This document shows positions 31,459 through 50,766 of a stretch of DNA of 64,000 nt, piece by piece. Each line of letters begins with the position of its first letter. Positions within the stretch are counted from its first letter, which is position 1. The stretch is from Nevskia sp. (GTDB lineage: Bacteria; Pseudomonadota; Gammaproteobacteria; Nevskiales; Nevskiaceae), in the NCBI GenBank assembly GCA_031291075.1, contig JARLJS010000088.1, positions 1 to 64,000 of the forward strand. Direction: 5' to 3'. Under the pieces are notes generated by a model that saw only the letters and a program-made list of their open reading frames with translations, searched no databases and had not been told where the DNA came from. Position numbers and translations under genes: made by a program.

Positions 31459-31485
31459 TGAGCGCAAAAAAACGTCACCGCCAAG
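31459..31485. repeat. Third, partial copy edge of the tandem duplication
   Basis: After the second copy, ctgagcg restarts the unit and is followed by caaaaaaacgtcaccgcca, which matches the caaaaaagcgtcaccgcca of the unit interior (31335-31352). A third copy has apparently been reduced by deletion to its two ends. The remaining 31486-31584 shows nothing recognisable. Confidence 0.6.
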
Positions 31486-31584
31486 CGTGCCTCCAAGCCA
31501 CGCTGCTGCGACGCATCAAACCGAACCGGATCAGCGGCTTCTCTCCAGCATCCCCCGTGGTGTGAACTACCCCGCATATAGGTG

Positions 31585-31613
31585 TTGGAACACCCTGGAC
31601 GCTCGGCTATAGT
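31585..31613 (+). promoter_or_regulatory. Promoter of the two-partner secretion operon
   Basis: TTGGAA at 31585-31590 and TATAGT at 31608-31613 with a 17-base spacer, pointing toward tpsB, whose start codon is at 31696. The hexamers and spacing are identical to those of the divergent gcv promoter. The leader of about 75 bases includes a small ggaat-catc-attcc hairpin. Confidence 0.65.
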
Positions 31614-31695
31614 GCCTGTTCGCCGTTTCGTACGACTACGACAGAGGGCCCAGGCGAGCGGCGGTTCCGGAATCATCATTCCAGTCGGGGGTTGC

Positions 31696-33333
31696 ATGCA
31701 CGCAGTGATCGCGGGACGACGGCTCTTGATTGCGGCGGGGCTGACACTCGCTTCAGGGTTTGTACACGCGGCTCCCCCCGCCCCGCCCACTCCCGGGGCG
31801 ATCGGCGAAACCCTGAAGCAACCTCCGGCCCTGCAGCCGCCTCCTCCGGCGCCCCAGATTGGTGCGCCCGAGCGGCAGGCGCCGACCGCGCCGGCGCGGG
31901 GCGCGACGCTCACCGTCTCCCACTTCGTCTTCAGCGGCAACACGCTATACAGCCAGGATGAACTGGCCGGGTTGATCGCGGACTACCTGAACAAACCGAT
32001 CACCCTGGCACAGGTCTACGAAGCGGCCGACAAGGTGTCGGACTTCTACGTGCGCCACGGTTACTCGCTCGCCAGCGTCACGGTGCCGGCACAGAAGGTG
32101 AAGGACGGCACGATCCGGCTGGAGGTGATCGAGGGGCGCGTGGGCAAGATCGGCTTCGAAGGCAACAGCCGCTACCACGACGGCCTGTTGCGCGGCTTCG
32201 TCAGCCACACACATCCGGACCAGGTCTACCAGTCCGCCCCGCTCGAGAAGGACCTGCAGACGCTCAACAGCCTGCCCGGCCTGGCGGCGCGCGCGGTGAT
32301 CCAGCCGGGCACCGACTACGGCACCAGCGACGTGATGGTGAAGGTCCAGGAGGATCCGATCGACGGCTACGCGGTGCTCGACAACTATGGCCGCAAGGAC
32401 TCGGGCCAGTACCGGGTATCGGCCTCGGTGACGGTCAACAATCCCTTCGAGGTGGCCGACCAGTTGCAGGTGCTGGGCACGCATGCCGACGCCAATCTGC
32501 TGAACTACGGCTACGTCGACTACAACGTGCCGATCGGCTACGGCGGCCTGCGGTTCGATGCCAACTACGGCCACGCCTACTTCAAGACGCCGGCATTCCT
32601 CACCAGCGGCAAGAACAACAACCTGCAGCTGAGCCTGATGCAGCCGTTCTGGCGTACCCCCGTCGATCAGCTGACGGCGTCGGCCGGCCTGATCCACACC
32701 GACGCCAACGCCCTGCTGTCGGGCGTGCCGATCCCCGGCACCTCCGCCAACGTCAACCTGCTCAACCTGGGCGCGACCTATTCGCACATCTGGTCGAACT
32801 CGGCGGTGACGCAGTACATCGGCAGCCTGCACACCAATTTCAACCAGTCCGACGCCGGCGATCTGAACCGCCGCGAGCGCCTGCGCCTGGAAATCAACGC
32901 GCAGCACCTGCAGCCGCTGCCCTGGTGGAAGCTGCAGGCGCTGGCGCAGGTGGACGGCGTGTACTCGCCCGACCCGCTGGTGGACACCGAGCAGTTCTCG
33001 ATCGGCGGTCCCACCAGCATCCGCGGCTTTCCGGCCTCCGAAGCCCGCGGTGACCGCGGCTTCTTCGGCCAGTTCACGCTGAGGCGGCCGTTCGCCGCCG
33101 GTCCGGTCAGCCTGGTGCCGCGCATCTACGCCGATAGCGGACGGGTCAAGACCCTGGGCTTCGCCCCCACCCCGGACACCAGCAACAGCCTCACCAGCGC
33201 CGGCCTCGGCAGCGACGTGATCTACCGCACTCTCGACCTCAAGGTCGACTGGGCCTACCCGTTGGACAGCCGCCCGGTAAGCGATGGCCGCGATCACGGC
33301 CGCGTCTACGCCGCGCTGACCGCGGGATTCTGA
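31696..33333 (+). CDS. TpsB outer-membrane transporter (ShlB/FhaC/HecB family)
   Basis: 545 residues. A signal peptide (RRLLIAAGLTLASGFVHA) is followed by a Pro-rich linker (about 25-60). Two POTRA domains follow, the first beginning LTVSHFVFSGNTLYSQDEL and the second IGFEGNSRYHDGLLRGF. The C-terminal half is a 16-strand-type barrel with the FhaC lid motif as GGPTSIRGFPASE (VRGF-like IRGF). TpsB proteins export their large TpsA partner across the outer membrane; the giant adhesin gene begins ten bases downstream. ATG at 31696 chosen because the signal peptide follows it at once. Confidence 0.94.
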   Translation: MHAVIAGRRLLIAAGLTLASGFVHAAPPAPPTPGAIGETLKQPPALQPPPPAPQIGAPERQAPTAPARGATLTVSHFVFSGNTLYSQDELAGLIADYLNKPITLAQVYEAADKVSDFYVRHGYSLASVTVPAQKVKDGTIRLEVIEGRVGKIGFEGNSRYHDGLLRGFVSHTHPDQVYQSAPLEKDLQTLNSLPGLAARAVIQPGTDYGTSDVMVKVQEDPIDGYAVLDNYGRKDSGQYRVSASVTVNNPFEVADQLQVLGTHADANLLNYGYVDYNVPIGYGGLRFDANYGHAYFKTPAFLTSGKNNNLQLSLMQPFWRTPVDQLTASAGLIHTDANALLSGVPIPGTSANVNLLNLGATYSHIWSNSAVTQYIGSLHTNFNQSDAGDLNRRERLRLEINAQHLQPLPWWKLQALAQVDGVYSPDPLVDTEQFSIGGPTSIRGFPASEARGDRGFFGQFTLRRPFAAGPVSLVPRIYADSGRVKTLGFAPTPDTSNSLTSAGLGSDVIYRTLDLKVDWAYPLDSRPVSDGRDHGRVYAALTAGF

Positions 33334-33343
33334 GGAACACCCG

Positions 33344-36300
33344 ATGAGCAAGCACTCCCTCCGGACCAAGCGCCTGCCGATTCCGGCGGCGATCTCGCGG
33401 GTCTTCGCCGCGGCCTCGCTGCTGGCGCCCGGCCTGGCCCTGGCCAACCCCAGCGGCGGCGTGGTGGCGGCCGGCCAGGCCACCATCAGCAATCCCTCGG
33501 CCAACGGCACCGTCGTCAACCAGGGCAGCAACTCCGCCGTCATCAACTGGCAGCAGTTCAGCATCGGCGGCCACGAGTACGTGCAGTTCGTGCAGCCCTC
33601 GTCCAGCAGCGTGGTGCTCAACCGCGTCATCGGCGGCTCGCCGTCGCAGATCTTCGGCAGCCTGTCGGCCAACGGCCGGGTGTTCCTGCTCAACCCGCAG
33701 GGTGTGATGTTCGCGCCGGGCGCACAGCTCGACGTCGGCGGCCTGGTGGCCTCGACGATGAATATCAAGGACCAGGATTTCATGGCCGGCCGCTACCAGC
33801 TGGCCGGCAGCAGCGCGCCGGGCGCTGCGGTGACCAACGCCGGCACCATCCGCGCCGCCGATGGCGGCTTCGTGGTGCTGGCCGGCGACCAGGTGAAGAA
33901 CACCGGCCTGATCCAGGCCAGGCTGGGCCAGGTGGTGCTGGCCAGCGGCTCGGCCACTACCCTGAACCTGGACGGCAGCGGCCTGGTGAGCTTTGCCGTG
34001 ACCAAGGCGGCGCTGTCGCAACAGGCCGGGGTGGACAACGCCGGGCAGATCATCGCCGACGGCGGCAAGGTGGTGATGACGGCCCAGACCGCCCATAACC
34101 TGGTGAGCAGCGCGGTCAACAACACCGGGCTGGTGCGTGCCCAGGGCATCGCCGAGCACGACGGCGAGATCGAGCTGACCGCCAGCGGCGGCGACATCGC
34201 CGACAGCGGCACGCTGAATGCCAGTAGCGCCGGCGGCAACGGCGGCAAGGTGACGGTGCACGGCGACGCCGACATCGATATCCAGCAGGGCGCGCAGATC
34301 CTGGCCGGCGGCGCCAGCCAGGGCGGCGCCGTCAGCGTGGTGGCCGACGGCACCCTCAACACCCGCACCGGCTCGCTGATCGACGTGCGCGGCAACAACG
34401 GCCCCGGCGGCTTCACCGAGCTGTCCGGCCACGGCAACCTGGCGGTGCGCGGCGACCTGCAGCTGGGCCAGGGCGGCACCCTGCTGATCGACCCGACCAA
34501 TCTCACCGTGGCCGCCGGTTCCGGCGGCAGCGGCAGCGCCGGCGGCAATGCCACAGTGTTCCAGAACACTGTGCAGACCACCCTGCAGCAGGGTGCCAAC
34601 GTGCAGCTGGTGGCCAGCAACAGCATCACCGTCGGCAACCTGGCCGTCGCCGGCAACACCAGCGGTGTGCTCAACGGCCAGAACGCCGGCAAGGGCGGCT
34701 CGCTGCTGCTGGGCATCGGCAGCGTCAGCGGCGGCGGCAACCTGGGCGTGGGCGGCGGCTACAGCGAGGGCAGCAGCGGCACCATCAGCTTCGTCAATTC
34801 CAAGGACACCATCACGTTGGACGGCCAGCTGACGATCGACGCCGGCAGCAGCGGCGGCACGGTCAATGTCGGCAGCCTGACCGGAAGCCAGGTCAACGTC
34901 AAAGGACTTGGCGGCGTGACGGCACGCAACCTGATCGCGACGCGGGGCAGTGTCACCCTCAACGCGAATTCCGGCAGCATCGCCACCGGCAATCTCACCG
35001 CCGCCCAGGGCAGCGTCAACATCACCAATACCGGCGGCGGCATCGCCGTCGGCAACCTCATTGCGACTTCCAGCGGCAGCAGCGGCGCCAGCGCCAGCGT
35101 CACCGCCTATTCCGCCGGCGGCATCAGCACCGGCAGCGTCACCGCCGCCGCCTCGGCCAAGGGCAACGTCGGCTCCGCCAGCGCCAATGTCTCGCTCAAC
35201 GCGAACTACTACGGCTCCAACAGCGGCGACCTGGTCGTCAACGGCCCCGTCGCGGTAAGTGCCAGCACCGCCGCGTCGAGCTACTCTGCGAGCGCGACGG
35301 CCAGCCTGAACGACTACAACGGCAGCGTGAACGTCGGCACCAACGCCATCGTCACCAACGCCAGTGGCGGCTCGAACCTCAGCGGCGGCAACGTCGCCGT
35401 TTATGCCGCCAACGGCGGCAACGTCAGCGTCGGCGGCATCGTCGCGACCAACAGCGCCATCAGCATCAATACCAGCGGAGGCGGTGGCATCACCCTGGGC
35501 TCGCTCTCCGGCGGCAGCTACGGCAGCCTGACCGCGGTCAACCTGACGTCATCCGGCAAGCTGACGCTCGGCAACAACTCCATCACCGCCGGGAACATCT
35601 CCATCTCCGCCGCCGCGGGTAATGTCAGCTTCGGCGCGCTGACCGCCAACTTCGGCAATATCAGTGTCAGCACCAGCGGCAGCGGCGGCAACATCACCCT
35701 GGGCAACGTCTCGGGCAGTTCCGCCTTCGGCCTGAACAACCTCACGGTGAACGCCTCGGGCGGGCTCAGCATCGGATCCGGCGTCAGCGCCGCCCAGATC
35801 AGCCTCAGCGCTTCCGGCGGCAAACTGAGCACCGGCGACCTTACCGCCAGCAACGGCAGCATCAGCCTCAGCGACACCGGCGGCGCCATCACTGCCGGCA
35901 ACCTGTCCGCCAGGTTTGCGGGAGAAGGCGGCAGCAGCACGGCCACCATCACCGCCTACTCCGCCGGCGGCATCAGCGTGGGCAGCGTCGGCACCTCGGC
36001 GCAGACCTCCAATCCCAGCGGCTACGCCAATGCCGGCATCTCGCTGAACGCCAACTATTACGGCTCCAACAGCGGCGACCTGGTGATCGCCGGCCCGGTC
36101 AACGCCGTGGCCAATGTCTCCGGCAACACGGTGACGGCCAGCGCCGCCGTGACCCTCAACGACTATCACGGCAACGTCAACCTCGGCGGCAACGGCGTCA
36201 GCACCAACGCCAGCGGCGGCGCCACCGTCAGCGGCGGCAACATCGCGGTCTACGCCGCCAACGGCAACATCGTCGCCGGCAACCTGCTGGCCATCAACAG

Positions 36301-39300
36301 CGCCATCAGCGCCAGCGCCAATGGCACCGGCGGCAGCATCGCCGTGGGCACGCTGTCCGGCACCGGCAGCTATGGCGGAGCGCTCAGCGCGGTCAGCCTG
36401 TCGTCGAGCGGTTCGCTGTCGACGGCCACCACCACGATCACGGCCGGAACGATTTCGATCTCCGCCGGTGCCGGCAACCTGGTGTTCGGCAACCTCACCG
36501 CCAGCAACGGCTCGATCAGCCTCACCGACAGCGGCGGCAATATCACCGCCGGCAACCTGTCCGCCACCTCGATCAGCACCGCCGGCAGCAGCGCCAACGC
36601 CACCATCAGCGCCTCCTCCGCTGGCGCCATCAGCGTGGGCAGCGTGAGCAGCAACGCCCAGGCGACCGGCAACGTCGGCTACGCCAGCTCGAGCATCACG
36701 CTTTACGCCAACAACTACGGCTCCAACAGCGGCGACCTGGTGCTTGGTGGACCGGTCAACGCCATCGCCGCCACCTCGGCCCCGGCTGCCAGCGGGTACT
36801 ACGCCAGCGCGCAGGTGACCCTGAACAACTACCGCGGCAACGTCAACGCGGGCAGCAACGCCGTCACGGCGATGGCCACCGGTGGCAGCACCGGCAACGG
36901 CTCCGGCCTCAACTTCTACACCGGCAACGGCGGCAGCATCGCCGCCGGCAACCTGAGTGCCGCCAACGGCACCATCAACGTCAACAGCAGCGGCAATGTC
37001 ACGGTGGGCACGCTGTCCGGAGGTTCCGGCGGAGTCCTGAGCAGTCTGAGCCTGTCGTCGAGCGGCACGCTCTCCACCGCCGGCGGGAACATCACCGCCG
37101 GAACCATCACGGTTTCCGCCGGCGCCGGAAACCTGAGCTTCGGCGACCTGACCTCCACCAACGGCTCGATCAGCCTGACCGACAGCGGCGGCGGCATCAC
37201 TGCCGGCAACCTGTCCGCCACCTCGATCAGCCCCACCAGCAGTGCCAACGCCACCATCAGCGCCTCGTCCGCGGGCGCCATCACCGTGGGCAGCGTCACC
37301 AGCAACGCCCAGGCCGCCGGCAACGTCGGCTACGCCAGTTCGAACATCACGCTTTACGCCAACAACTACGGCAGCAACAGCGGCGACCTGGTGATCAATG
37401 GACCGGTCAGCGCCGTCGCCAGCACCGCGGCCCCGGCCGCCACGGGTTATACCGCCAGCGCACAGGTGACCCTGTACGACTACCGCGGCAACGTGAGCGC
37501 CGGCAGCAACGCCGTCACCGCCATGGCCACCGGCGGCAACACCAGTAACGGCTCCAGCATCAACTTCTACACCGGCAATGGCGGCAACATCGCTGCCGGC
37601 AACCTGACCGCCACCAACGGCACCATCAGCGCCAACGGCAGCGGCAACATCACGCTGGGCACGCTCTCCGGCGGCAGCTATGGCGGGGTCCTGACCAACG
37701 TAAACCTGTCGGCGGGGGGCGCGCTGACTTCCGCCAGCAGCAACATCACCGCCGGCGTCATCAGCTTGACCGCTGGCGCCGGGAACCTGAGCTTCGGCAA
37801 CCTGACCTCCACCAACGGCTCGATCAGTCTCGCCGATAGCGGCGGCAGCATCACCGCCGGCAATCTGTCCGCCAGTTCGATCAGCTCCACCAACAGCGTC
37901 AATGCCAGCATCAGCGCCTACTCCGCCGGCGCCATCACCGTGGGCAGCGTCACCAGCAACGCCCAGGCCACCGGCAACGTCGGCTATGCCAGTTCGAGCA
38001 TCACGCTCTACGCCAACAATTATGGCTCCACCAGTACCGGCGACCTGACAATCGGCGGGCCGGTCAACGCCGTCGCCGCCACCGCGGCTCCTGCCGGCAG
38101 CGGTTACACCGCCAGCGCGCAGGTGACCCTGAACGACTACCGCGGCAACGTGAACCTGGGCGGCAACTCCGTCACGGCCATGGCCAGCGGCGGCAACACC
38201 ATCAACGGCTCCAGCCTCAGCCTCTACGCCGGTAACGGCGGCAGCATCGCCGCCGGCAACCTCACCGCCGTGAACGGCAGCATCAATGCCAGCACCAGCG
38301 GCACCGGCGGCAACATCGCCGTCGGCACGATTTCCGGCGGCAGCGGCGCGCTCAGTTCGGTCAACCTGTCGGCTTCCGGCGCCTTGTCGACGGCCAATAC
38401 CTCCATCACGGCAGGCACCATCAATCTGTCCGCCGGCGCGGGCACGCTGAGCTTCGGCGCCCTCACTGCCAGCAGCGGCGGTGTCAACGTCAGCAACAGC
38501 GGCGGAAATATTACAGGCGGCATGGTTTCGGCCCCCGGCGGCGGCATCCAGATCACCGACAGCGGCGGCACCGTCACCACGGGCGACCTGACTGCCGGCA
38601 ACGGTTCGATTTACTTGTCCGACACCACCGGCGGCATCACGGCCGGCAATCTCTCGGCGAGTTCCAGCAGTTCCATCGGCAGCGCCACCGCGACGATCAC
38701 CGCGTACTCTGGCGGCGGCATTTCGCTGGGCAGCGTCACCACCAATGCCCGTGCGACGGGTAACGTCGGCTACGCCTCCGGAGACATTAATCTCAACGCC
38801 AATTACTACAGTTCCAACAGCGGCGACTTGGTGATTGCGGGCCCGGTCAACGCCATGGCGAGTATCGGCGCTCCGTTCGGCAGCGGCTATAGCTCCAGCG
38901 CGCAGGTGACCCTGAACAACTACCGCGGCAACGTGAACCTTGGCAAGAACGGCGTCACGACCAACGTGAGTGGCGGCGGGATCAGCAGCAATGATGACGT
39001 CAACATCTACGCCAGCAACGGCGGCAATATTATTACCGGCAAACTCAATGTAATGGCCGGTGCAGTCAGCGTCACCACCAGCGGGGGCGGCGGAATCGCC
39101 CTGGGCGGACTCATCGGTGGCAGCATGAACGGCGCCGACGCGGGCGAGCTGACGTCGGTCAACCTGTCCTCGTCTGGGACGCTGAGCGTAGCGCAGCAAC
39201 GCATTCTCGCCGGCAACATCACCCTCTCGGCCGGCACCGGCAACATCAGCTTTGGCGGTTTGACGACCACCTTCGGCGGCAACGTCAGTGTTACCACCAG

Positions 39301-42300: not shown

Positions 42301-45300
42301 TGCCGGCAGCATCATGCTGTCCGCCGGCAGCGGCAATCTCAGTGCCGGCAACCTGCTGCAGACAAATGCCGGCTCCGGCATCAGCGTGGCTGACAGCGGC
42401 GGCAGTATCACGCTGGGCAGCGTCACCGCCAATGGCAACATCGGCCTCAGCGCCGGCGGTGGCGTCACGGCCGGCAATCTCGCCGCCAACGCCGGTGGCG
42501 CCACCATCACTGTGGCCGCCAATGGCGGCAATTTGGTCGTGGGCAGCCTGTCCGATTCGGCCGGACTGCTGTCCGCCGTCACCCTCAGTGCCGGCGGCGG
42601 CTTGAGCGCCGGCGGCGCGGGCATCACCGCCGGCAGCATCGGACTGTCCGCCGGCAACGGGAACCTGAGCGCGGGCAACCTGCTCGTCACCAACTTCGGC
42701 GCCGGCATCAGCGTCTCTGACGCCGGCGGCAGCATGACCCTGGGCAGCGTCACCGCCAACGGCGGCATTACGCTGAACGACGCCGGCGGCGGCATCACCG
42801 CCGGCAACCTCGCCGCCAACGGCAGCGGGGCGTCCGTCAGCGTGACGGCCACGGGCAGCGGCTCCAACATCGCGCTGGGTACGGTGTCGGGCGGTTCCTA
42901 CGGGGGTCTGAACTCGGTGGCGCTGGTCGCCGGCGGCTCGCTGACCACGGCCCAGCGCAACATCACCGCCGGCAACATCACGCTCTCCTCCGGCGCCGGC
43001 AACCTCAGCTTCGGGGCACTCACCGCGACCAGCGGCCCGCTCCTGGTGACCGATACCGCCGGCAACATCGCCACCGGCGATCTCAATGCCGCCGGCAAGA
43101 TCCACGTCGAGGCGGCGAGCGGCGCGCTCGCGCTCGGCAACGTCGCCTCCAGCGGGACTTCCAGCGGCGTGCGGCTGTTCGGCGGCACCACCATCTCCGC
43201 CGTCAACGTGGTGGCGAACGGCAACATCTACGTGGGCGGCGCCTTCACGACCTCATCCGGCGGGATGAACAACTCGCCGTCCGGCCCGATCGCGAACGGC
43301 GTGACGCTGGGCAACGTGACCAGCAACGGCGCCGACGTGCGGATCGGCCAGGTCGGGTATACACAGAGCACCACCGGCCCCGCCTTCTCCACCGCCAGCA
43401 ACGTCACGGTCGGCAACGTCGGCGCCGCCGGCAACATCGCCGTGCGCGGCGTGACGCAGCTCACCACCGGATCGCTGTCCGCCGGCGGCGCGGTGCGCCT
43501 GCGCGGCGGCGGCACCATCACCGTCAACGGCAACATCAGCACCAGTTCGCTCGACGCCGGCATTTCGCTCGCCAACTTCACGCTCGACTCCAGCGGCAAC
43601 ATCGTCAGCGAGACCGTGGCGCAGCAGCTGTCGCAACTGACGGTCAACGGCGCGATCAGTTCCACCGGCAACATCCTGCTCGGCGGCCTGGATTCCAACA
43701 ACAACTACTTCATCCAGAACGCTGCCGTGACCGGCCCGATCAGCGCCGGCGGCAGCTTCAGGAGCTTCACCGCCAACAGCCTGAACCTGGGCGGCGCGGT
43801 CACCGCCACCGGCAGTCTCATAGTCAAGGGCGGCGGCGGCCTCAACCTGGCCGATGTCAGCACCACTGGAAACATCGCCCTCAACGCCGGCGGCGGCGTC
43901 AGCGCCGGCAACCTCGCGGCGAACGCGAGCGGCGCCACCATCACCGTGGCCGCCAATGGCGGCAACGTGCTGGTGGGCAGCCTGTCCGACTCGGCCGGTT
44001 CGCTGGCGTCGGTGAGCCTGACTGCGGCGGGCGGCTTGACCGCGGGCGGCGCGGGGATCACCGCGGGCACCGTCGCGCTGTCGGCCGGCAACGGCAATCT
44101 CAGCGCCGGCAATCTGGTCGTCACCAACGCCGGGACCGGCATCAGCGTCAGCGACGCCGGCGGCAACATCACGCTGGGCAGCGTCACCGCGCCCGGCAGC
44201 ATCAGCCTGAGCGACACCACCGGCGGCATCAGCGCCGGCACGCTCGGCACCTCGGCCAACGTCAGCGTAACCGCCGGAAGCGGCGTGACCCTCGGCGCCA
44301 TCAGCCTGGGCAGCAGCGCCAACAACGGCGCCCTGCAGATCAGCGGCGCCAGGGTACAGACCGGCGACATCGCCAACAACAGCCCGCTGGCTCCGACCGG
44401 CACGGCCAACGACATGAGCGTCACCGCCACGGCCGGCAACATCGCCCTGGGCAATCTGACCACGCCGGGCACCGGCACCGTGGCATTGATTCTCAACTCC
44501 GCCGGCGCCATCAATACCGGCAACATCAATCTCGAAGTCATCCAGGCCCAGGCCGTCGGCAATATCGCCCTCGGCAACCTCTCGCTGCAATCGTTGACCC
44601 CGGGCCTGGCCGGCAGCAGCAGCCTGACCTCGAGCGGCGGCAGCGTCAGCACCGGCAGCATCGCCTCCAACCACGGGCTGAGCGTGTCCGCGGCCACCGG
44701 CATCGCACTGGGCGACACCGGCGTGGCGGGGCCGATCCAGCTCGCCACCGGCGGCGGCACCCTCGCCACCGGCAACCTCAGCACCACCGGCGACGGCATC
44801 ACCGCCACCGACGGCGGCGGCGGCATCACGGTGGGCAACCTCAACGGCGGCGCCATCCAGCTCGCCGCCATCGGCGGCGCGGTCAGCGCCGGCAACATCA
44901 CGACCGGCAGCGACGCCGTCAGCGTGAGCGGCACCAACCTCGCCCTTGGCAGCCTGTCGGCGGGCGGCGGCACCCTGACCTCGCTCAGCCTCACCACCTC
45001 CGGCACCCTGACCACCGGCATCACCAGCCTCAGCGCCGGCTCGATCAACCTCGCCGCCGGCGCCGGCAACCTCAGCCTCGGCAACCTCACCGCCACCAGC
45101 GGCGCCCTCAGCGTGGCCGACAGCGGCGGTGCGGTGCGCACCGGCGACCTCAGCGCCGCCAACGGCGCTGTGACGCTGACCGCCCAGAACGGCCTGAGCG
45201 CCGGCAACGTCAGCGGCTCCAGCGTCACCGCCACCGCCGTCCTGGGCAACGCCAGCTTCGGCAACTTCAGCTCGCCGGGCACCGTCACCCTCAATGTGCC

Positions 45301-46798
45301 CAACGGCAGCCTCGCCACCGGCAACATCAACGCCGGGCAGTTCTTCAGCAACCTGGGCGGCGGCAACGAGCAGGTCGGCGCAGTCAAGGTCACCGGCAGC
45401 CAGCTCGGCTTCAAACTGGGCGATGTGGCCGGCCAGACCCTGCAGATCGGCAGCCTCAACTTCGGCGGCGCGGCGAACTTCACCTACAAGAACGCCAGCC
45501 TGACGGTGGGTTCGGCCACGGTCGGCGGCGGTTTCACCGCCAACCTCACCAGCGGCAACCTCGCCACCGGCGACCTCACCGCCGCCGGCGACATCGACCT
45601 CACCGCCGGATCCGGCAGCCTGGCCTTCGGCAACCTGTCCGGCACCAACATCGCGATCATGGCCAGCCAGGCGCTGGGCATTGCCAGCCGGATCAGCGCC
45701 AGCGGCAACCTCAGCGTCAACGACACGGCCAGCATCAGCATCACCGGCTCGACCATCAACGCCAATGCCATCGGCCTCAGCAGCGGGGCCAGCCTGGGCA
45801 TCAGCAACAGCACGCTGCAGGGCCAGTCGATCAACGCCACCGCGACCGGCGGCGTCACCATCGCCAACAGCACGCTGAGCGCGCCGACGGTCACCACCAG
45901 CGCCGCCGTGGCGCACAGCCCGCTGGCGTCCACCAGCGGGAGCAGCCTGACGCTGACCAGCCAGGGGGCCATCGCGCTGAACCAGGCCACCCTGGGCTTG
46001 TTCTCGCAGATCACGCTCAACGGTGCCGGGGCGGTCGGCTCCACCGGCGGCACCTCGTCCATCAATGCCGGCTCGCTGTCGGTGACGGGCAACAGCATCA
46101 ACTTCGGCACCGCCAATATCGCCGTCGGCAGCGGGCTGGCCGGCTTCGGCAGCGACCCCGCGCTGCTGCAGCTGATCCAGGCCAAGTCGCCGGGCCTGGC
46201 ACCGTCCTCGACGGGCCCCAACGCCAGCTTCTCGGCGCCCAACGGGGTCACGCTGGGCAATGTCAGTGTCGCCGGCGGCTACCTGTTCATCCAGGCGCCC
46301 ACCCTGCAGCTGCCGGGTTCGGTCGGCGGCACCACCCCGCTGTTCGTCGACTACCTGCCCACCAATACGCAGGCGCCGGTGACGCTCACCCTGCTGCAGC
46401 CGCCGTCCGGCGTCGGCACCCTGGTCATCGGCGGCACGCCGGAGACCGGCACCATCCAGGTCGGCGACGGCACGCAGACCTTCGCGCTGGCCACCAACAC
46501 CAACCTGGTCTTCGCCACCAACGGCACCACCCTCTATCCGGACGCGATCAGCACCGCCGGCCAGGTGGTGGTGCTGGGCGAAGCAGTGCTGCGCACGCCA
46601 CCGGTCACGCTGACGGACATCCCCATCACCGCCAGCCAGTACCAGGTGACGGCGCCGAACCAGGGTGTGCTCGGCAATGCGCCCGAGACCGGCGACGTCA
46701 ACGACCCGGGAGTCAGCAACGCCAACCGCGGACTCATCGACCAGAAGACCGCCGTCGAAACCGGCGGCCTGAGCTGCGGCATGGGAGGATCACCGTGA
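33344..46798 (+). CDS. Giant TpsA adhesin (filamentous-haemagglutinin type, 4,484 residues)
   Basis: One uninterrupted 13.4-kb frame, roughly 400 kDa. An extended basic N-terminus and signal peptide end around APGLALA-NPSGG. Residues about 40-300 form the TPS/haemagglutination-activity domain, with NRVIGGSPSQIFGSLSANG and the NPQGVMFAPGAQLDVGG version of the NPNG motif, which binds TpsB POTRAs. Nearly all the rest is Gly/Ser/Ala/Asn/Thr-rich, in about 20-residue rungs such as ITAGNLSA..GSISLTDSGG, as expected for a long beta-helix. The rungs are grouped into longer repeats. No toxin (CDI-type) or other globular C-terminal domain is recognisable. The only cysteine I noticed is in the last ten residues (LSCGMGG). 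GAGGA precedes the ATG by seven bases. Surface adhesion or matrix function is inferred from the family. Confidence 0.93.
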   Translation: MSKHSLRTKRLPIPAAISRVFAAASLLAPGLALANPSGGVVAAGQATISNPSANGTVVNQGSNSAVINWQQFSIGGHEYVQFVQPSSSSVVLNRVIGGSPSQIFGSLSANGRVFLLNPQGVMFAPGAQLDVGGLVASTMNIKDQDFMAGRYQLAGSSAPGAAVTNAGTIRAADGGFVVLAGDQVKNTGLIQARLGQVVLASGSATTLNLDGSGLVSFAVTKAALSQQAGVDNAGQIIADGGKVVMTAQTAHNLVSSAVNNTGLVRAQGIAEHDGEIELTASGGDIADSGTLNASSAGGNGGKVTVHGDADIDIQQGAQILAGGASQGGAVSVVADGTLNTRTGSLIDVRGNNGPGGFTELSGHGNLAVRGDLQLGQGGTLLIDPTNLTVAAGSGGSGSAGGNATVFQNTVQTTLQQGANVQLVASNSITVGNLAVAGNTSGVLNGQNAGKGGSLLLGIGSVSGGGNLGVGGGYSEGSSGTISFVNSKDTITLDGQLTIDAGSSGGTVNVGSLTGSQVNVKGLGGVTARNLIATRGSVTLNANSGSIATGNLTAAQGSVNITNTGGGIAVGNLIATSSGSSGASASVTAYSAGGISTGSVTAAASAKGNVGSASANVSLNANYYGSNSGDLVVNGPVAVSASTAASSYSASATASLNDYNGSVNVGTNAIVTNASGGSNLSGGNVAVYAANGGNVSVGGIVATNSAISINTSGGGGITLGSLSGGSYGSLTAVNLTSSGKLTLGNNSITAGNISISAAAGNVSFGALTANFGNISVSTSGSGGNITLGNVSGSSAFGLNNLTVNASGGLSIGSGVSAAQISLSASGGKLSTGDLTASNGSISLSDTGGAITAGNLSARFAGEGGSSTATITAYSAGGISVGSVGTSAQTSNPSGYANAGISLNANYYGSNSGDLVIAGPVNAVANVSGNTVTASAAVTLNDYHGNVNLGGNGVSTNASGGATVSGGNIAVYAANGNIVAGNLLAINSAISASANGTGGSIAVGTLSGTGSYGGALSAVSLSSSGSLSTATTTITAGTISISAGAGNLVFGNLTASNGSISLTDSGGNITAGNLSATSISTAGSSANATISASSAGAISVGSVSSNAQATGNVGYASSSITLYANNYGSNSGDLVLGGPVNAIAATSAPAASGYYASAQVTLNNYRGNVNAGSNAVTAMATGGSTGNGSGLNFYTGNGGSIAAGNLSAANGTINVNSSGNVTVGTLSGGSGGVLSSLSLSSSGTLSTAGGNITAGTITVSAGAGNLSFGDLTSTNGSISLTDSGGGITAGNLSATSISPTSSANATISASSAGAITVGSVTSNAQAAGNVGYASSNITLYANNYGSNSGDLVINGPVSAVASTAAPAATGYTASAQVTLYDYRGNVSAGSNAVTAMATGGNTSNGSSINFYTGNGGNIAAGNLTATNGTISANGSGNITLGTLSGGSYGGVLTNVNLSAGGALTSASSNITAGVISLTAGAGNLSFGNLTSTNGSISLADSGGSITAGNLSASSISSTNSVNASISAYSAGAITVGSVTSNAQATGNVGYASSSITLYANNYGSTSTGDLTIGGPVNAVAATAAPAGSGYTASAQVTLNDYRGNVNLGGNSVTAMASGGNTINGSSLSLYAGNGGSIAAGNLTAVNGSINASTSGTGGNIAVGTISGGSGALSSVNLSASGALSTANTSITAGTINLSAGAGTLSFGALTASSGGVNVSNSGGNITGGMVSAPGGGIQITDSGGTVTTGDLTAGNGSIYLSDTTGGITAGNLSASSSSSIGSATATITAYSGGGISLGSVTTNARATGNVGYASGDINLNANYYSSNSGDLVIAGPVNAMASIGAPFGSGYSSSAQVTLNNYRGNVNLGKNGVTTNVSGGGISSNDDVNIYASNGGNIITGKLNVMAGAVSVTTSGGGGIALGGLIGGSMNGADAGELTSVNLSSSGTLSVAQQRILAGNITLSAGTGNISFGGLTTTFGGNVSVTTSGTGGNITLGAVSGGSTFFSGYGGLVNVGMNASGAINVGSDIKAQRINLSASGGNIAAGNLTATNGSISISDSGGGITAGSLSATQVGNLGSSTATINVYSAGGITLGSVGTNAQATGNVGYAQGDVYLYANYYGNNSGDLVVAGPINTNASTAGPGYTASASVNLNDYRGNVSLGGNGIVAFASDGNTGAYAANISLYAANGGSITAGNLIASNSSISASTNSGNIGAGNITLGTLSGGLLGLAPISIDLTAAGSLSSASSSITAGSISLSAGGGNLAFGGLTASNGSVYVSNSGGGITLGQVSASQGSVHVSATGGAITTGDVTSGNGAINIYDTTAGISTGNLAATSTGGNSDSSSAYTYIDVYSAGAISVGSVTANAQVTGNVGYAQSNIYLYANYYGGNSGDLTIGGPVSATANTAAPTYTASASVSLNDYSGNINAGSNAVTAMASGGNTAPGASSVSLYANNGGSIAAGNLTATSGSITANTNSGNIGAGNITVGGLSAGAGNVLTSVNLSAAGGLGVGGDVIGSNVSLSANNGNLGAGNVSALQSALYVNDYGGNISLGNVGSNGAIQLYDTTGSITAGSLTAQSSSIYVYGGGNVAVGGLSGGSGALTSASISSTGGGVTVGGDVVAPVVTLYAGNGNLTAGNVAATTQSGLSISDYGGSMSLGSVSANGGIQLYDTGGNLGAGNITANGGGIYVSDAGGNISVGNLAASTNSASSGQATVSLFAAGGISTGSITTSAQVTGSGYASGSVQITANSSEGAPTTQGDIVIGGPVTTSAMSSGNGSYYTDASVSITNGNGGIYLGTNAIATNPTGTNAFGDIGLIATNGGITSGGLTVGPGGNITVTTTGTGGNVAVGALSGGSGGLNNVVLTASGTLSTGSPSITAGAITISAGNGNLSAGDLTATNANTSLSVSDTNGSMTLGNLSATGNIGLNDTGGNLSTGSLTASGGSVNATDSGGSMTVGAISGGSGSLTAVSLSATGGLSVGGAGITAGSIMLSAGSGNLSAGNLLQTNAGSGISVADSGGSITLGSVTANGNIGLSAGGGVTAGNLAANAGGATITVAANGGNLVVGSLSDSAGLLSAVTLSAGGGLSAGGAGITAGSIGLSAGNGNLSAGNLLVTNFGAGISVSDAGGSMTLGSVTANGGITLNDAGGGITAGNLAANGSGASVSVTATGSGSNIALGTVSGGSYGGLNSVALVAGGSLTTAQRNITAGNITLSSGAGNLSFGALTATSGPLLVTDTAGNIATGDLNAAGKIHVEAASGALALGNVASSGTSSGVRLFGGTTISAVNVVANGNIYVGGAFTTSSGGMNNSPSGPIANGVTLGNVTSNGADVRIGQVGYTQSTTGPAFSTASNVTVGNVGAAGNIAVRGVTQLTTGSLSAGGAVRLRGGGTITVNGNISTSSLDAGISLANFTLDSSGNIVSETVAQQLSQLTVNGAISSTGNILLGGLDSNNNYFIQNAAVTGPISAGGSFRSFTANSLNLGGAVTATGSLIVKGGGGLNLADVSTTGNIALNAGGGVSAGNLAANASGATITVAANGGNVLVGSLSDSAGSLASVSLTAAGGLTAGGAGITAGTVALSAGNGNLSAGNLVVTNAGTGISVSDAGGNITLGSVTAPGSISLSDTTGGISAGTLGTSANVSVTAGSGVTLGAISLGSSANNGALQISGARVQTGDIANNSPLAPTGTANDMSVTATAGNIALGNLTTPGTGTVALILNSAGAINTGNINLEVIQAQAVGNIALGNLSLQSLTPGLAGSSSLTSSGGSVSTGSIASNHGLSVSAATGIALGDTGVAGPIQLATGGGTLATGNLSTTGDGITATDGGGGITVGNLNGGAIQLAAIGGAVSAGNITTGSDAVSVSGTNLALGSLSAGGGTLTSLSLTTSGTLTTGITSLSAGSINLAAGAGNLSLGNLTATSGALSVADSGGAVRTGDLSAANGAVTLTAQNGLSAGNVSGSSVTATAVLGNASFGNFSSPGTVTLNVPNGSLATGNINAGQFFSNLGGGNEQVGAVKVTGSQLGFKLGDVAGQTLQIGSLNFGGAANFTYKNASLTVGSATVGGGFTANLTSGNLATGDLTAAGDIDLTAGSGSLAFGNLSGTNIAIMASQALGIASRISASGNLSVNDTASISITGSTINANAIGLSSGASLGISNSTLQGQSINATATGGVTIANSTLSAPTVTTSAAVAHSPLASTSGSSLTLTSQGAIALNQATLGLFSQITLNGAGAVGSTGGTSSINAGSLSVTGNSINFGTANIAVGSGLAGFGSDPALLQLIQAKSPGLAPSSTGPNASFSAPNGVTLGNVSVAGGYLFIQAPTLQLPGSVGGTTPLFVDYLPTNTQAPVTLTLLQPPSGVGTLVIGGTPETGTIQVGDGTQTFALATNTNLVFATNGTTLYPDAISTAGQVVVLGEAVLRTPPVTLTDIPITASQYQVTAPNQGVLGNAPETGDVNDPGVSNANRGLIDQKTAVETGGLSCGMGGSP
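34900..40700 (+). repeat. Eight long-period repeats in the adhesin gene
   Basis: A module marked by YANYYG-S/N-NSGDLV-like text recurs eight times; the tyrosine-glycine codons lie near 35210, 36059, 36716, 37367, 38021, 38807, 39698 and 40499. Spacings are 283, 219, 217, 218, 262, 297 and 267 codons. Each module runs GNLSA..., ATITAYSAGGIS-GSV, NVGYA, NSGDLV-GPV, then a DYRGNV segment. All length changes are multiples of three. Confidence 0.85.
36473..38440 (+). repeat. Three near-identical 654-660 base tandem units within the adhesin gene
   Basis: Units begin at about 36473, 37127 and 37781 (ggcaacct/ggaaacct/gggaacct followed by ttcggc) with the next related start at 38441, giving periods of 654, 654 and 660 bases. 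Long stretches match at the nucleotide level, including synonymous positions, so the copies are recent or kept alike by recombination. They encode the 217-219 residue version of the long repeat. Confidence 0.85.
42293..44200 (+). repeat. Second repeat family in the adhesin gene
   Basis: A different module beginning GGAGITAG-I-LSAG-GNLSAGNL and ending SDSAG-L occurs from about 42293, 42620 (period 327 bases, 109 codons) and again near 44053. It shares SVTANG and NLAANASGATITVAANGG blocks. This shows that the distal stalk is built from a second amplified unit. Confidence 0.75.
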
Positions 46799-47631
46799 AT
46801 TTCCAGCTTTGCCTTCGCGCCGCCGCGGCGGTGGTGTTGTCGCTCCCGGCCCTGGCCTGGTCCGCCGACGCCCCGCCCGCCGGGACGGTCACCATGCTGA
46901 CCGGCCGCGGCACCGCGACCTCGCCCGACGGCACCATCCGCCAGCTGGCCAAGGGCGACCCGGTGTTCGCCGGCGAGATCATCAGCTCCAGCATCAACAC
47001 CTACGTCAACCTGAAGTTCAGCGACGGCGGCTATTTCCTGCTGCGGCCGAACAGCCGCTTCCATATCGTCGATTTCGTCGACCATACCGGCGCCGCCGCC
47101 GCACCTGCGGCGCCGCCCGCCCCGGCACCGGGCGCTCCGCCGGCTTCGCCGGTCCAGCCCGTGGCGCCGCTGGTCACGCAGCAGGCCACCCAGGGCGGGG
47201 AATCGCACGCCTTCTTCCGCCTGCTCAAGGGCGGCTTCCGCTCCATCAGCGGGCTGGTGGGCAAGCTCAACCACGACGAGTACCAGGTGGCGACGCCGGT
47301 CGCCACCATCGGCATCCGCGGCACCGACTACGAGGCGGTGATCTGCGACGCCGCCTGTGCCTCGGACCCGGTGGTGGCGGCGGGACTGCCGGCCGGCCAG
47401 AAGGCCGAGGGTGGCCTGCTGACCGGTGTGATCGAAGGCCGGATCGCCGTCGGCGACCCCAGCCAGTGCCCGGGCAACGCCAGTCCGGCCGGGCAGCAGT
47501 CCGGCGGCTGCGTGGAGGTACCCGCGGGCCAGTACCATCTGACCACGGCGGACGGCAGCCAGGTGGTGCTGGGCAGCCAGCCGCACTTCCTGAACGTCGA
47601 CCCGATCCCGAATCCGCGCCTGTGCCAGTAG
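46795..47631 (+). CDS. FecR-domain periplasmic protein
   Basis: 278 residues. A signal peptide (LCLRAAAAVVLSLPALAWS-ADAP) precedes a FecR-like domain at about 28-90, with VTMLTGRGTATSPDGTIRQL, KGDPVFAGEIISS and YVNLKFSDGGYFLLRPNSRF. An Ala/Pro hinge (about 98-125) follows, then a second block with ATPVATIGIRGTDYEA. Unlike classical FecR it has no membrane-spanning anti-sigma segment and no sigma factor nearby. The mature part carries five cysteines. The GTG start overlaps the adhesin stop (GTGA), so it is co-translated with TpsA and probably helps it in the periplasm or at the surface. Confidence 0.85.
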   Translation: MNFQLCLRAAAAVVLSLPALAWSADAPPAGTVTMLTGRGTATSPDGTIRQLAKGDPVFAGEIISSSINTYVNLKFSDGGYFLLRPNSRFHIVDFVDHTGAAAAPAAPPAPAPGAPPASPVQPVAPLVTQQATQGGESHAFFRLLKGGFRSISGLVGKLNHDEYQVATPVATIGIRGTDYEAVICDAACASDPVVAAGLPAGQKAEGGLLTGVIEGRIAVGDPSQCPGNASPAGQQSGGCVEVPAGQYHLTTADGSQVVLGSQPHFLNVDPIPNPRLCQ

Positions 47632-47636
47632 CCTGA

Positions 47637-47667
47637 CGCCCGCCGCGAAGCGAAACCGCGGCGGGCG
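47637..47667 (+). terminator. Strong GC hairpin after the FecR-domain gene
   Basis: cgcccgccgcg pairs perfectly with cgcggcgggcg around the nine-base loop aagcgaaac, six bases after the stop codon. There is no T-run, so it may slow, stabilise or partly end transcription instead of acting as a full terminator. A TAGTAT hexamer at about 47679-47684 may serve a separate promoter for sapC. Confidence 0.45.
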
Positions 47668-47722
47668 CGGCCCGGTGTAGTATCTGAAGCCGGTCGACCC
47701 TGACCTTCCGATCGCAGATTCC

Positions 47723-48490
47723 ATGAGCCAGATCACGCTGCAGGCACCGCCGGGCTACGGCGCCCTGACGCCGTTCGACCGGCAGCGCCATGCCGGCCTC
47801 GGCCTGCGCGAGGATCGCACACTGGGCTGGTGCGCCGTCCTCAACAGCGTGTTCCTCAACGCGGTGGAACTGGCGCGCGCCGCCCTCGACTACCCCATCG
47901 CCTTCGTGCGGGAGGAAAGCAGCGGCGAGTTCCTGCCGGTGGCGGTGCTGGGCCTGCGCGCCAAGGAGAACCTGTTCGTGGACCGGGAGGGCCGCTGGAG
48001 CCCGCATGCCTACATCCCGGCCTACGTACGCCGCCATCCCTTCTGCATCGCCGAGATCCCGGCGGCGGAAGGCGCCGAGCCGCAGCGGCTGGTATGCGTG
48101 CAGGAGGACCAGCTCGCGCCCTCGGCGTCCCCGTTGCTCGACAGTCGTGGCGAGGCCACGCCGACCTGGGTGCCGTTGCTGCAGCTGATCGAGGCGGTGG
48201 AGGGCGCGCGCCAGCAGACCCGCGCCTTCACCCGCCGCCTGGAGGCTTTCGGCCTGTTCACCCCCTTCGACGCCCTGGCGCTGCCGCGCGACGGCCAGCA
48301 GCTGCGGCTGCAGGGCATGCACCGCGTCGACGAGGATCGCCTCAACGCCCTGGGCGCGCGCGAGCAGAAACTGCTGATGCGCAAAGGCGAGCTGCGCGCG
48401 GTCTACGCCCACCTGTTGTCGCTGGAAAACTTCGCCAAGCTGCTGAACCTGACCGCCGAAAAAGATGGGCGTCGAGATACGGCTCACTGA
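47723..48490 (+). CDS. SapC-family protein
   Basis: 255 residues matching the SapC family (named after a Campylobacter S-layer locus). It has family-like text such as HAGLGLREDRTLGWCAVLN, VFLNAVELARAALDYPIAFVRE, FLPVAVLGLRAKENLFVD and YIPAYVRRHPFCIAE. No signal peptide, so it is cytoplasmic. The biochemical activity is unknown; in other proteobacteria family members often lie beside TonB receptors, cupin-like and halogenase-like genes. Here its 3' end overlaps the sulfotransferase-like gene by 26 bases, which argues for joint action. Confidence 0.85.
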   Translation: MSQITLQAPPGYGALTPFDRQRHAGLGLREDRTLGWCAVLNSVFLNAVELARAALDYPIAFVREESSGEFLPVAVLGLRAKENLFVDREGRWSPHAYIPAYVRRHPFCIAEIPAAEGAEPQRLVCVQEDQLAPSASPLLDSRGEATPTWVPLLQLIEAVEGARQQTRAFTRRLEAFGLFTPFDALALPRDGQQLRLQGMHRVDEDRLNALGAREQKLLMRKGELRAVYAHLLSLENFAKLLNLTAEKDGRRDTAH

Positions 48491-49553
48491 CCGCGAGCTG
48501 CCGGTCTCGCCGGTCTTCATCGACTACCTGGCCCACCTGCTCGACGGCCGTCCCTACGACGACGACGAGTGGGCCAACCAGACCTCGGAGGCGCTCAACT
48601 ACGGCCTGCCCGAGCTGCAGCGCCGCGCCGAGTCCGCCGCCCCGCGGGTGATCGACGACCCGCAGGGGCGCGCCTGCATCGGCCGCGCCTACAGCCTGCT
48701 GATGGCGCTGCTCACCGGGGATTTCCAGCCGATCGCCGATCTGCAGAAAAGGTTCGATTTCGTCAACGTGGTCGGCATCCCGCGCACCGGCGGCTCCTAC
48801 CTCACAGCGGAGCTGTACCGCGCGCTGGGAATCGAGCCGCGCCACGTACCGTTCGCCCTCGCCCACGACGGTTTTCCCGAAGCCGGCCCGTTCGAGCTGG
48901 AACCGGCGGCCAACAGCTGGATCCGCAGCCTGCACACCATGGCCGAATACCTGACCATGGTGGAGCTGTTCTTCGGCGGGCGCGCGCCGCACGGCGAGCG
49001 CATCGTGGTGCCCAAGAAGCTGACCAAGGGAATCTACGCCGGCGGCTTCATCCACCGCGTGCTGGGCGATGCGGTGGAGCACATCGTGACCCTGCGCCAC
49101 CCGGTGGCGGCCTGCATATCGACCTACGAGAAGTCCGGTGGCCTGCCGGCCGACGGCCGCTTCACGGTGCGCTCCAACATCGAGGACTGGTGCCGGCGCG
49201 ACCTGCTCTACACCGGCTGCGACCGCGACGAGATGGCAGCGATGGACTACTTCGACGCCTACCTGCGCTACTGGGAGCAGTACCACTACTACGCCGCCAC
49301 CACCGGGCTCTCGGCCAGCCGCGGGCTGCGCGTGGTGGTCTACGGCCGCGAGCGGCTGGAAGGACTGGCGCGCAGCTTCCACGCCCGTTTCGGCAGCGCG
49401 CTGCAACCCCATGCGTTCCTGGCGGACGATACGGCACGACGGCGGCATCCGGACTGGATCGAACGCGCCCGGCCGGCACTATTGCGGGTGGCGGGGGTGT
49501 GGCAACGCGTCGGCCTGACGTTTCCCGTCGACGAAGTGGAAGAATGCTGGTGA
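48465..49553 (+). CDS. Sulfotransferase-like P-loop protein
   Basis: 362 residues. The PAPS-binding type P-loop is visible as VVGIPRTGGSYLTAEL at about 102-117, and a downstream TLRHPVAACISTYEKSGG matches the 3'-phosphate-binding RxP..S region of sulfotransferases. A glycosaminoglycan or protein tyrosine sulfotransferase-like fold is likely, but the acceptor is unknown. The first 95 residues are an unrecognised extension (PVSPVFIDYLAHLLDGRPYD). The ATG at 48465 lies inside sapC in another frame. Located 34 bases before the glycosyltransferase gene. Confidence 0.7.
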   Translation: MGVEIRLTDRELPVSPVFIDYLAHLLDGRPYDDDEWANQTSEALNYGLPELQRRAESAAPRVIDDPQGRACIGRAYSLLMALLTGDFQPIADLQKRFDFVNVVGIPRTGGSYLTAELYRALGIEPRHVPFALAHDGFPEAGPFELEPAANSWIRSLHTMAEYLTMVELFFGGRAPHGERIVVPKKLTKGIYAGGFIHRVLGDAVEHIVTLRHPVAACISTYEKSGGLPADGRFTVRSNIEDWCRRDLLYTGCDRDEMAAMDYFDAYLRYWEQYHYYAATTGLSASRGLRVVVYGRERLEGLARSFHARFGSALQPHAFLADDTARRRHPDWIERARPALLRVAGVWQRVGLTFPVDEVEECW

Positions 49554-49587
49554 GCCGCGGCGACCGGCCGGCGGAGCGCTGAGGCGT

Positions 49588-50766
49588 ATGGCGCGCGTCC
49601 TCCTGGCCTGGGAACTGGGCGGCGGCTATGGCCACCTGGCGAAGCTGCGGCTGGTGGCGCGCGCGCTGCGCAGCGCCGGGCACGAATGCGTGTTCGCGGT
49701 GCGCCTGCTGGAGAACGCGGCGGAGTTCCTCGAACCGGGGCTGGGCCCGGTGCTGCAGGCACCGGTGCGGCTGGGGCCTGGCCGCAACCCGGTGGACGTG
49801 CAGCTCAGCTACGCCAGCCTGCTGCACAACACCGGCTTCGACGACCCGCTCGGACTGTCCGCCCGCATCGCCGCCTGGCGCGAGCTGATGCGTGCCTTCC
49901 GCGTCGACCGGGTGCTCGCCGACCACAGTCCGATCGCCATCATCGCGGCGCGCGCCGAGGGCCTGCCCGTCGCGGCCGGAGGCAGCGGCTTCATGCTGCC
50001 GCCGCTGACGCGGCCGTTCCCATGCTTCCAGCCGTGGACGCGGGTGGACCCGGAACAACTGGTGCGCAACGAGGAACAGGTGCTGCTGGAGCTGAACTGC
50101 GCCCTGGAGCACCTGCGGCTGCCACCCTATCCCAGCCTGCAGCACATCTTCGACAGCTGCACCCGGCTGCTGCTGACCTATCCGGAGCTGGACCACTACG
50201 ACATCCCGCGCAACGAGCCCTACCTGGGGGTGCCGGAGTTCTCGCACGGAGCGGCGCCGCAATGGCCGCCGGGAACGGCGCCGAAGGTGCTGGCCTACCT
50301 GCGGCCGCACCAGAACATCGAGGCGATGCTGCAGGCGCTCTCCGCCAGCCGGGCGCGGGTGCTGCTGCGCATCGCCGAGGTCGAGCCGGAACGCCTGCGC
50401 GGCTACCTGCGGCCAGGGCTTGCGATCGTGGGCTCCGCGGTCGACCTGCGCCGCGCCGCCGAGGAGTGCGACGCATATATCAACTATGCCGCCTACGGCA
50501 ACATCGTCGACATGCTGCTCGCCGGCAAGCCCGGCGTGCTGTGGCCGGACCACCTGGAACGCTCGCTGGTGGCGCGGCGCGTGGAGCAGATGGGCGCCGC
50601 GGTGGTGGCGCCGCCGCAGGGCGGCTTCGACGCCGGCGCAGCGCTGGAGCGGGCACTGACCGATCCCGCGCTCCGCCGCGCCGCCGAGGGCTTCGCCGCG
50701 CGCTATGGCGGCTGGGACCGCGCCGGCCTGCCGGCGCTGATGGCGCAGCGGCTGCTCGGCACCTGA
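49588..50766 (+). CDS. GT-B glycosyltransferase (GT1/UGT-like)
   Basis: 392 residues with a two-Rossmann GT-B plan. The N-terminal LLAWELGGGYGHLAKLRLVARAL is an acceptor-domain opening. The C-terminal donor site has ECDAYINYAAYGNIVDMLLAGKPGVLWPDHLERSLVARRVEQMG, the HGGxGT...GxPxxxxPxxxDQ pattern with Tyr in place of the usual His/Gly. No signal peptide or membrane helix. End of the plus-strand run that begins at tpsB; sugar donor and acceptor are unknown. Confidence 0.78.
   Translation: MARVLLAWELGGGYGHLAKLRLVARALRSAGHECVFAVRLLENAAEFLEPGLGPVLQAPVRLGPGRNPVDVQLSYASLLHNTGFDDPLGLSARIAAWRELMRAFRVDRVLADHSPIAIIAARAEGLPVAAGGSGFMLPPLTRPFPCFQPWTRVDPEQLVRNEEQVLLELNCALEHLRLPPYPSLQHIFDSCTRLLLTYPELDHYDIPRNEPYLGVPEFSHGAAPQWPPGTAPKVLAYLRPHQNIEAMLQALSASRARVLLRIAEVEPERLRGYLRPGLAIVGSAVDLRRAAEECDAYINYAAYGNIVDMLLAGKPGVLWPDHLERSLVARRVEQMGAAVVAPPQGGFDAGAALERALTDPALRRAAEGFAARYGGWDRAGLPALMAQRLLGT

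Follow-up and report, generated by a model that had tools for sequence, protein, structure and literature searches.

Gene content of the locus

The DNA examined in this study is a 64,000-nucleotide stretch from Nevskia sp. (GenBank assembly GCA_031291075.1, contig JARLJS010000088.1, positions 1 to 64,000), referred to below as the window, which contains a two-partner secretion (TPS) locus of six genes. All six are on the plus strand and encode, in order, a TpsB transporter, a TpsA exoprotein, a FecR-domain protein, a SapC-family protein, a sulfotransferase-like protein (ST) and a GT-B glycosyltransferase (GT). The order and strand given in an earlier note on this sequence agree with the checked open reading frame (ORF) coordinates, and the junctions it described are exact: TpsA and FecR overlap by GTGA at 46795-46798, SapC and ST overlap by 26 bases at 48465-48490, and 34 bases separate ST from GT.

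The first two genes form a type Vb pair. TpsB (31582..33333) is an ShlB/FhaC-type outer-membrane transporter that matches the Pfam families ShlB (127.8 bits, E 8e-37) and POTRA_2 (71.2 bits); its start is more likely the ATG at 31696, since a signal-peptide-like N terminus begins there (ORF residue 39). TpsA (33344..46798) is a filamentous-haemagglutinin-type (FHA-type) exoprotein of 4484 aa containing the FHA N-terminal domain TIGR01901 (79.1 bits against a cut-off of 29.1), and by inspection its N terminus resembles a signal peptide. Glycine, serine, alanine, threonine and asparagine make up 66.6% of its residues, and its sequence has a period of about 217 aa. No Pfam family was listed for TpsA in a scan at E 0.1, and neither Pfam nor NCBIfam, both at E 0.1, returned a toxin family. 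The FecR-domain protein (46795..47631), the proposed periplasmic anchor of TpsA, has a signal-peptide-like N terminus and matches Pfam FecR (E 1.9e-6, 28.7 bits).

SapC (47723..48490) matches its Pfam profile, PF07277, over the full length (positions 2-220 of 220) with 183.6 bits against a cut-off of 28.9 (E 5e-54). Its structural model is confident (pLDDT 90.8), and none of the PDB matches was convincing, the best having E 4.8e-3, a probability of 0.12 and a TM-score of 0.13. Because inspection revealed no obvious signal peptide, SapC is probably cytoplasmic.

ST (48465..49553) had no match in Pfam at E 0.01, in NCBIfam at E 0.1 or among PDB sequences at E 10, and a divergent relative matches Sulfotransfer_3 below the cut-off (E 0.00087). 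Six residues (P106, R107, G109, G110, R211 and S219) are nevertheless invariant in 32 aligned sequences. The conserved region GIPRTGGSYL (48774..48803) and the R-x7-S motif formed by R211 and S219 (49095..49121) are presumably the 5'-phosphosulfate-binding loop and the 3'-phosphate-binding motif, respectively, of sulfotransferases that use 3'-phosphoadenosine 5'-phosphosulfate (PAPS). When the AlphaFold model (pLDDT 87.4) was compared with the PDB using Foldseek, ranks 1-7 were tyrosylprotein sulfotransferases (best E 2.7e-3, query TM-score 0.31-0.33) and ranks 1-24 were all sulfotransferases, counting StaL and Teg12, which we take to be such, with weak scores (query TM-scores 0.21-0.34). Adenosine 5'-phosphosulfate (APS) kinase was considered as a genomic marker for ST and was discarded as not discriminating, because 81 of the order's 85 genomes have it.

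GT (49588..50766) resembles the EryCIII/YjiC kind of glycosyltransferase, which we assume to be GT1-like. Its match to EryCIII-like_C falls below the cut-off (22.2 against 31.7 bits), which two of its relatives pass, and its PDB match is to CalG2 (E 1.1e-3). GT was not identified as a GT41 (HMW1C-like) enzyme; among the proteins scanned, Glyco_transf_41 was found only in two other loci (L087 and L088).

Recurrence of the gene set in other genomes

ST was taken as the most specific probe of the gene set. ST matched in 14 of the order's 85 genomes, and in 12 of them (window included) over its full length. Of these 12, 11, again counting the window, have TPS genes in the neighbourhood of ST; the exception is genome G001 (locus L053). 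An even sample of 369 genomes of the class gave 17 with an ST match, including the window. In 11 of the 16 others ST is beside TPS genes (G092, G295, G438, G263, G310, G194, G391, G288, G164, G117 and G439), with the TpsB match of G117 reaching just 23% and its ST split over two ORFs. Four are not so linked, namely G261 and G205, where ST is in clusters with GT41 genes (the G261 contig starts just before ST), G408, with only the 3' part of ST, and G144, with a weak match; ST of G293 lies at a contig edge and cannot be judged. The 398 genomes of the phylum sample yielded a single non-self match, G763, with the order TpsA-TpsB-ST. The association of ST with TPS genes is therefore real.

Thirty-five named contigs carry ST, and some of their genomes also occur in the class sample. 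TpsA or TpsB is visible on 19, and five more (L064, L067, L068, L073 and L076) hold the C-terminal part of TpsA at the contig start. Three have SapC without visible TpsA (L053, L063 and L072), and eight have neither (L070, L077 and L080-L085); one of the eight, L083, is a fragment at a contig edge. Two others are informative about loss. L084 retains the genes that in relatives border the TPS locus on either side, TPS genes are absent and the two halves of its ST are out of frame with each other. L085 shares its downstream neighbour, ThiF-rhodanese, with relatives, TPS genes were not found and ST is reduced to its 3' part, the upstream side not being comparable with relatives. Disruption of ST in both loci suggests that it is not kept without TPS genes.

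SapC and GT likewise recur with TpsB, TpsA and FecR. Of 45 SapC matches in 39 of the 85 genomes of the order, 27 belong to TPS or FecR loci (of which two show FecR alone in the visible flank), one (L197) adjoins an FHA-type giant with DUF3739, 16 were without TPS genes when searched with our own queries, and one (G084) falls outside the context count. The order also contains 26 GT matches: 19 in TPS or FecR loci, two checked and found elsewhere (L219 and L222), two contig-edge fragments and three outside the context count. This is the conserved synteny that the earlier note had named as support, and it is retained across several gene orders: TpsB-TpsA-FecR-SapC-ST-GT, GT-TpsB-TpsA-FecR-SapC-ST, SapC-ST-TpsA, TpsA-TpsB-ST and TpsB-FecR-SapC-TpsA-GT. 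The first of these orders is that of Sinimarinibacterium sp. CAU 1509 (L059), and the third is that of Solimonas fluminis HR-BB (L058). The treatment of SapC, ST and GT as a single trio did not hold up. Eleven TPS or FecR loci have SapC and GT without ST (L187, L194, L196, L198, L201, L202, L203, L205, L208, L209 and L150), genome G004 has the core and ST with no GT match anywhere in the genome, and on two alphaproteobacterial plasmids TpsA is followed by SapC with neither ST nor GT adjoining. The loci without ST and the genome without GT indicate that TpsB-TpsA-FecR-SapC is the core, to which ST and GT come and go; this independence also disfavours the idea that ST sulfates the product of GT. 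These counts rest on tblastn and HMMER searches in fetched flanks of limited length, with some ORFs called mechanically and many loci on incomplete metagenome contigs cut at their ends, and because the loci are related by descent they are not independent events.

The SapC of these loci form one set of 40 rows in the SapC tree (support 99/97) with a single orphan, L212, while seven more distant TPS-linked SapC fall outside the set. Contigs L064 and L069, titled as Klebsiella pneumoniae, group with Gammaproteobacteria contigs in this tree and their labels look wrong. In the class, 143 genomes gave 24 SapC matches: seven beside TPS genes, two in loci with a TonB receptor, a cupin and a halogenase, one beside an HlyD gene, seven adjoining another ORF of at least 1200 codons (in L226 with one small ORF between) and seven in no listed context (six examined; G162 was not fetched). 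When loci of the order are included, the giants near SapC that could be identified are RTX (L186 and L224) and Ig/cadherin (L204 and L211) proteins. A SapC match was also present in 43 plasmid records, nine of which were read. SapC follows TpsA in those from Azospirillum and Thalassospira, adjoins a giant LEPR-XLL protein in one from Rhodobacteraceae, is part of a TonB-receptor-SapC-cupin-halogenase series in one from Sphingobium, and has other neighbours in the remaining five. Taken together, these contexts suggest that SapC often, if not always, accompanies large exported proteins regardless of their export route. In four genomes of the window's own genus (L188, L190, L191 and L192), a distant SapC is at most 1.4 kb from an APS kinase gene (PF01583); in L188, a 3132-codon ORF also adjoins SapC.

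Paired terminal cysteines in TpsA and FecR

TpsA of the window contains a single cysteine, Cys4478 (codon 46775..46777), the seventh residue from its C terminus, and the FecR protein encoded immediately downstream has a C-terminal cysteine of its own, Cys277 (codon 47623..47625). The same arrangement was found in every TpsA with FecR in its locus: exactly one cysteine occurs in the last 60 residues, at most seven residues from the end, in 41 of 41 proteins (24 from loci with ST, 14 from loci without ST, L209, and the distant L279 and L282; L072, L150 and L195, with no TpsA in view, were left out). These tails otherwise differ widely, and the lone cysteine is kept. On the FecR side, C277 is invariant in the 22 aligned proteins, C184 and C188 are close together and nearly invariant, and the window protein holds two further cysteines, C225 and C239. 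A cysteine no more than eight residues from the end is present in all 44 FecR proteins of TPS loci (25/25, 17/17, plus L248/L279 and L251/L282), where L251 is classed as a TPS locus because the larger stretch of the same region, L282, shows TPS genes. The pairing holds where gene order differs (L209 and L279).

Proteins lacking the partner provide a comparison. Among FecR proteins from the phylum survey for which no TPS genes were found, only 1 of 28 has a terminal cysteine, the exception being L245/L276, with two. In the FecR-cysteine count, repeats of equal length and tail were counted once and, from the many phylum-survey matches, only L245-L291 were used; many of these loci had flanks of just 1.5 kb, in which TPS genes could be missed. 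Fourteen TpsAs have no FecR nearby (that of L231, its start cut, is presumed to be a TpsA). Eight of them have no cysteine near the end (L089, L090, L091, L093, L098, L105, L231 and L297) and three have two, at 12 and 5 (L197), 13 and 4 (L292) and 40 and 5 (L296) residues from it. Two more FecR proteins are encoded in the window's own genome, on contigs C93 and C158 (L274 and L275); both match the window FecR profile well, lack the terminal cysteine and have no TPS genes that we could find in the stretch.

The LapA retention module, NF033682, gives a match at E <= 0.01 in each of the 22 aligned FecR proteins, that of the window included. In other groups, many FecR-like matches of the phylum survey fall within open frames 2000-7800 codons long, as would be expected if giant proteins there carried a built-in retention module.

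Proposed anchoring and tailoring of TpsA

These observations suggest that the locus makes and holds a giant TPS-secreted surface protein, with FecR as a disulfide-bonded anchor and with SapC, ST and GT acting in the cytoplasm; we assign this reading a probability of roughly one half. TpsA would be exported by Sec and then through TpsB, its tail would remain in the periplasm, and the lone C-terminal cysteine would bond with the C-terminal cysteine of FecR, which would not pass the TpsB pore and would serve as a detached anchor resembling a retention module. The cysteine pairing is more readily read as the mark of such an intermolecular tether, with FecR an anchor rather than a modifier. SapC, ST and GT may act before export, because simple inspection found no obvious signal peptides in them. 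SapC may accompany giant surface proteins or serve them as an adaptor, and ST, with PAPS as its donor, and GT, with a nucleotide sugar, could be independent, optional tailoring enzymes. The fuller proposal, in which the tethered TpsA is itself sulfated, and in some lineages glycosylated, by the linked enzymes with the help of SapC, is tentative, and the odds lean against it. To our knowledge no sulfated two-partner adhesin has been described, and this would be the first. If the tether exists, the paired cysteines would be a direct covalent link between two proteins, and the arrangement, which recurs in other bacteria, could be a new way to hold and decorate giant surface proteins. The locus also offers a handle on the function of the widespread SapC family and on whether bacteria sulfate large surface proteins, and sister loci that have or lack ST or GT are natural controls.

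Several known systems resemble parts of this locus. HMW1 is glycosylated in the cytoplasm by a third gene product, HMW1C (PMC3983070), and a disulfide region at its C terminus, which lodges at the TpsB partner, keeps it attached to the cell (PMC5422565, PMC13192263). HMW1ABC and EtpBAC thus share with the window a TpsB, a TpsA and a dedicated glycosyltransferase (PMC5422565, PMC3983070, PMC8151025), but GT of the window is EryCIII-like rather than GT41, and SapC and ST are added. Moreover, the HMW1 disulfide is formed within TpsA by two cysteines, which is impossible by count for the single cysteine of the window TpsA; here the bond would be with the separate FecR, a solution unlike the HMW1 loop. 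The giant adhesin LapA, a type I secretion substrate, is held by an N-terminal periplasmic retention module (PMC6890996), whereas the comparable module here stands alone as a protein of a TPS system. RaxST and RaxX also place a sulfotransferase gene (for tyrosine sulfation of a secreted peptide) beside its exported substrate, but RaxX is a 60-residue peptide precursor, in contrast to the giant TpsA. The TonB-receptor, SapC, cupin and tryptophan halogenase loci (L234 and L236) likewise combine SapC with an outer-membrane protein and tailoring-type enzymes, although the exported protein and the enzymes differ and their SapC belongs to a separate clade. The review PMC5422565 mentions neither FecR nor sulfotransferase, and PMC8151025 neither FecR nor SapC. 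Searches of a limited collection of literature found nothing pairing "FecR domain" with "filamentous hemagglutinin", nothing on "SapC family protein" and nothing joining SapC, TonB-dependent receptor and tryptophan halogenase. Combining two-partner secretion, SapC and sulfotransferase two at a time returned no title on such a locus; three Xanthomonas papers mention both TPS and sulfotransferase.

A number of observations weigh against the anchoring and tailoring reading, some of them generally and others by favouring an alternative. The window FecR scores 32.4 bits against the curated NF033682 cut-off of 50, and no Foldseek match of the ST model reached E <= 0.001. L053 carries SapC-ST and no TpsA; intact-looking ST without TPS genes in the flank is present in L070, L077, L080, L081 and L082 (the flank being short in L077 and L082); and no TPS gene is annotated less than 15 kb away from an ST copy (37%) on an Acidithiobacillus caldus plasmid.

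There are several potential explanations for the linkage other than modification of TpsA. It is conceivable, though rather unlikely, that ST and GT modify some other component of the surface, such as lipopolysaccharide, exopolysaccharide or a glycolipid, that TpsA binds or cooperates with, so that the linkage would reflect one surface phenotype. EryCIII-like glycosyltransferases, which GT resembles in its EryCIII-like_C and CalG2 matches, often use small or lipid acceptors. In addition, divergent ST copies (42-43%) in L087 and L088 adjoin GT41 and other sulfotransferase genes; the two clusters also hold FkbM methyltransferase genes, with TPR-sulfotransferases in L088, and possibly represent a glycan-sulfation cluster. 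Tyrosine sulfation of TpsA was considered but is not supported, as tyrosine is not enriched but lower in TpsAs of loci with ST (median 1.5% in 20 proteins, against 2.5% in 14 from loci without ST; Mann-Whitney p 0.0014, with related rows), the wrong direction for a substrate. This comparison dropped TpsAs shorter than 600 aa or with less than 300 aa beyond the first 400 and kept four cut-off ones, from L058, L060, L232 and L242. TpsAs of loci with ST also have more asparagine and less aspartate plus glutamate, and some are nearly free of tyrosine; a small number of sites could still be sulfated. Against another acceptor, ST and GT occur independently beside the same TPS core, which argues that neither needs the other's product nearby, and ST is broken in the two loci that lack TPS genes. 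Furthermore, the GT41 family in the L087 and L088 clusters is that of HMW1C and of O-GlcNAc transferases (PMC3983070). A further divergent ST occurs in L093, a TpsA-TpsB locus; the gene after it encodes a TPR protein that carries a GT9-type domain, perhaps another glycosyltransferase add-on.

A second alternative, which we consider unlikely, concerns the anchor: the terminal cysteines of TpsA and FecR may serve other bonds (TpsA-TpsA, FecR-FecR or with a third protein), and FecR may be a regulator or chaperone. FecR domains are classically parts of signalling systems. In addition, a lone cysteine two residues from the end is present in the Solimonas-type TpsAs L217 and L218 with no FecR found nearby, and the FecR-less L294 has one cysteine 10 residues from its end. 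However, the two cysteines co-occur, being missing from 27 of 28 FecR proteins outside TPS loci and from the C-terminal region of 8 of 14 TpsAs without FecR, and C184 and C188 may pair with each other, which would leave C277 without an obvious partner inside FecR. It is very improbable that shared descent alone keeps the six genes side by side, with SapC-ST-GT a separate operon functionally unconnected to TpsA: orphan ST copies and the orphan L212 SapC of the TPS clade would agree with this, as would the gap before SapC described below, but the survey found linkage across many families, at 35-78% ST identity and in different gene orders, and in the SapC tree the TPS link persists through at least three changes in the presence of ST on well-supported branches.

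Transcription signals are compatible with more than one arrangement. The 91 bp between FecR and SapC contain a strong hairpin that is rich in G+C and lacks a T run (47637..47667), as stable as or less stable than 8 of 200 shuffled sequences (z -1.94), and a hairpin at this position allows separate transcription of SapC and the genes after it. A consensus scan found three promoter-like sites, against 1.2 expected by chance, of which the only one on the plus strand is at 31585-31613, just 5' of the ATG at 31696; the same scan found no terminator-like plus-strand site between the six genes, which weakly suggests that they may be transcribed as one unit. The locus is flanked by a GcvT-like gene on one side and by TetR and acyl-CoA dehydrogenase genes on the other. 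Just upstream of TpsB lie two copies, 98% identical, of a 125-bp element (31103-31226 and 31341-31465). This element has 15 matches in the genome overall and, because the copies elsewhere are weaker and partial, it looks like a dispersed repeat.

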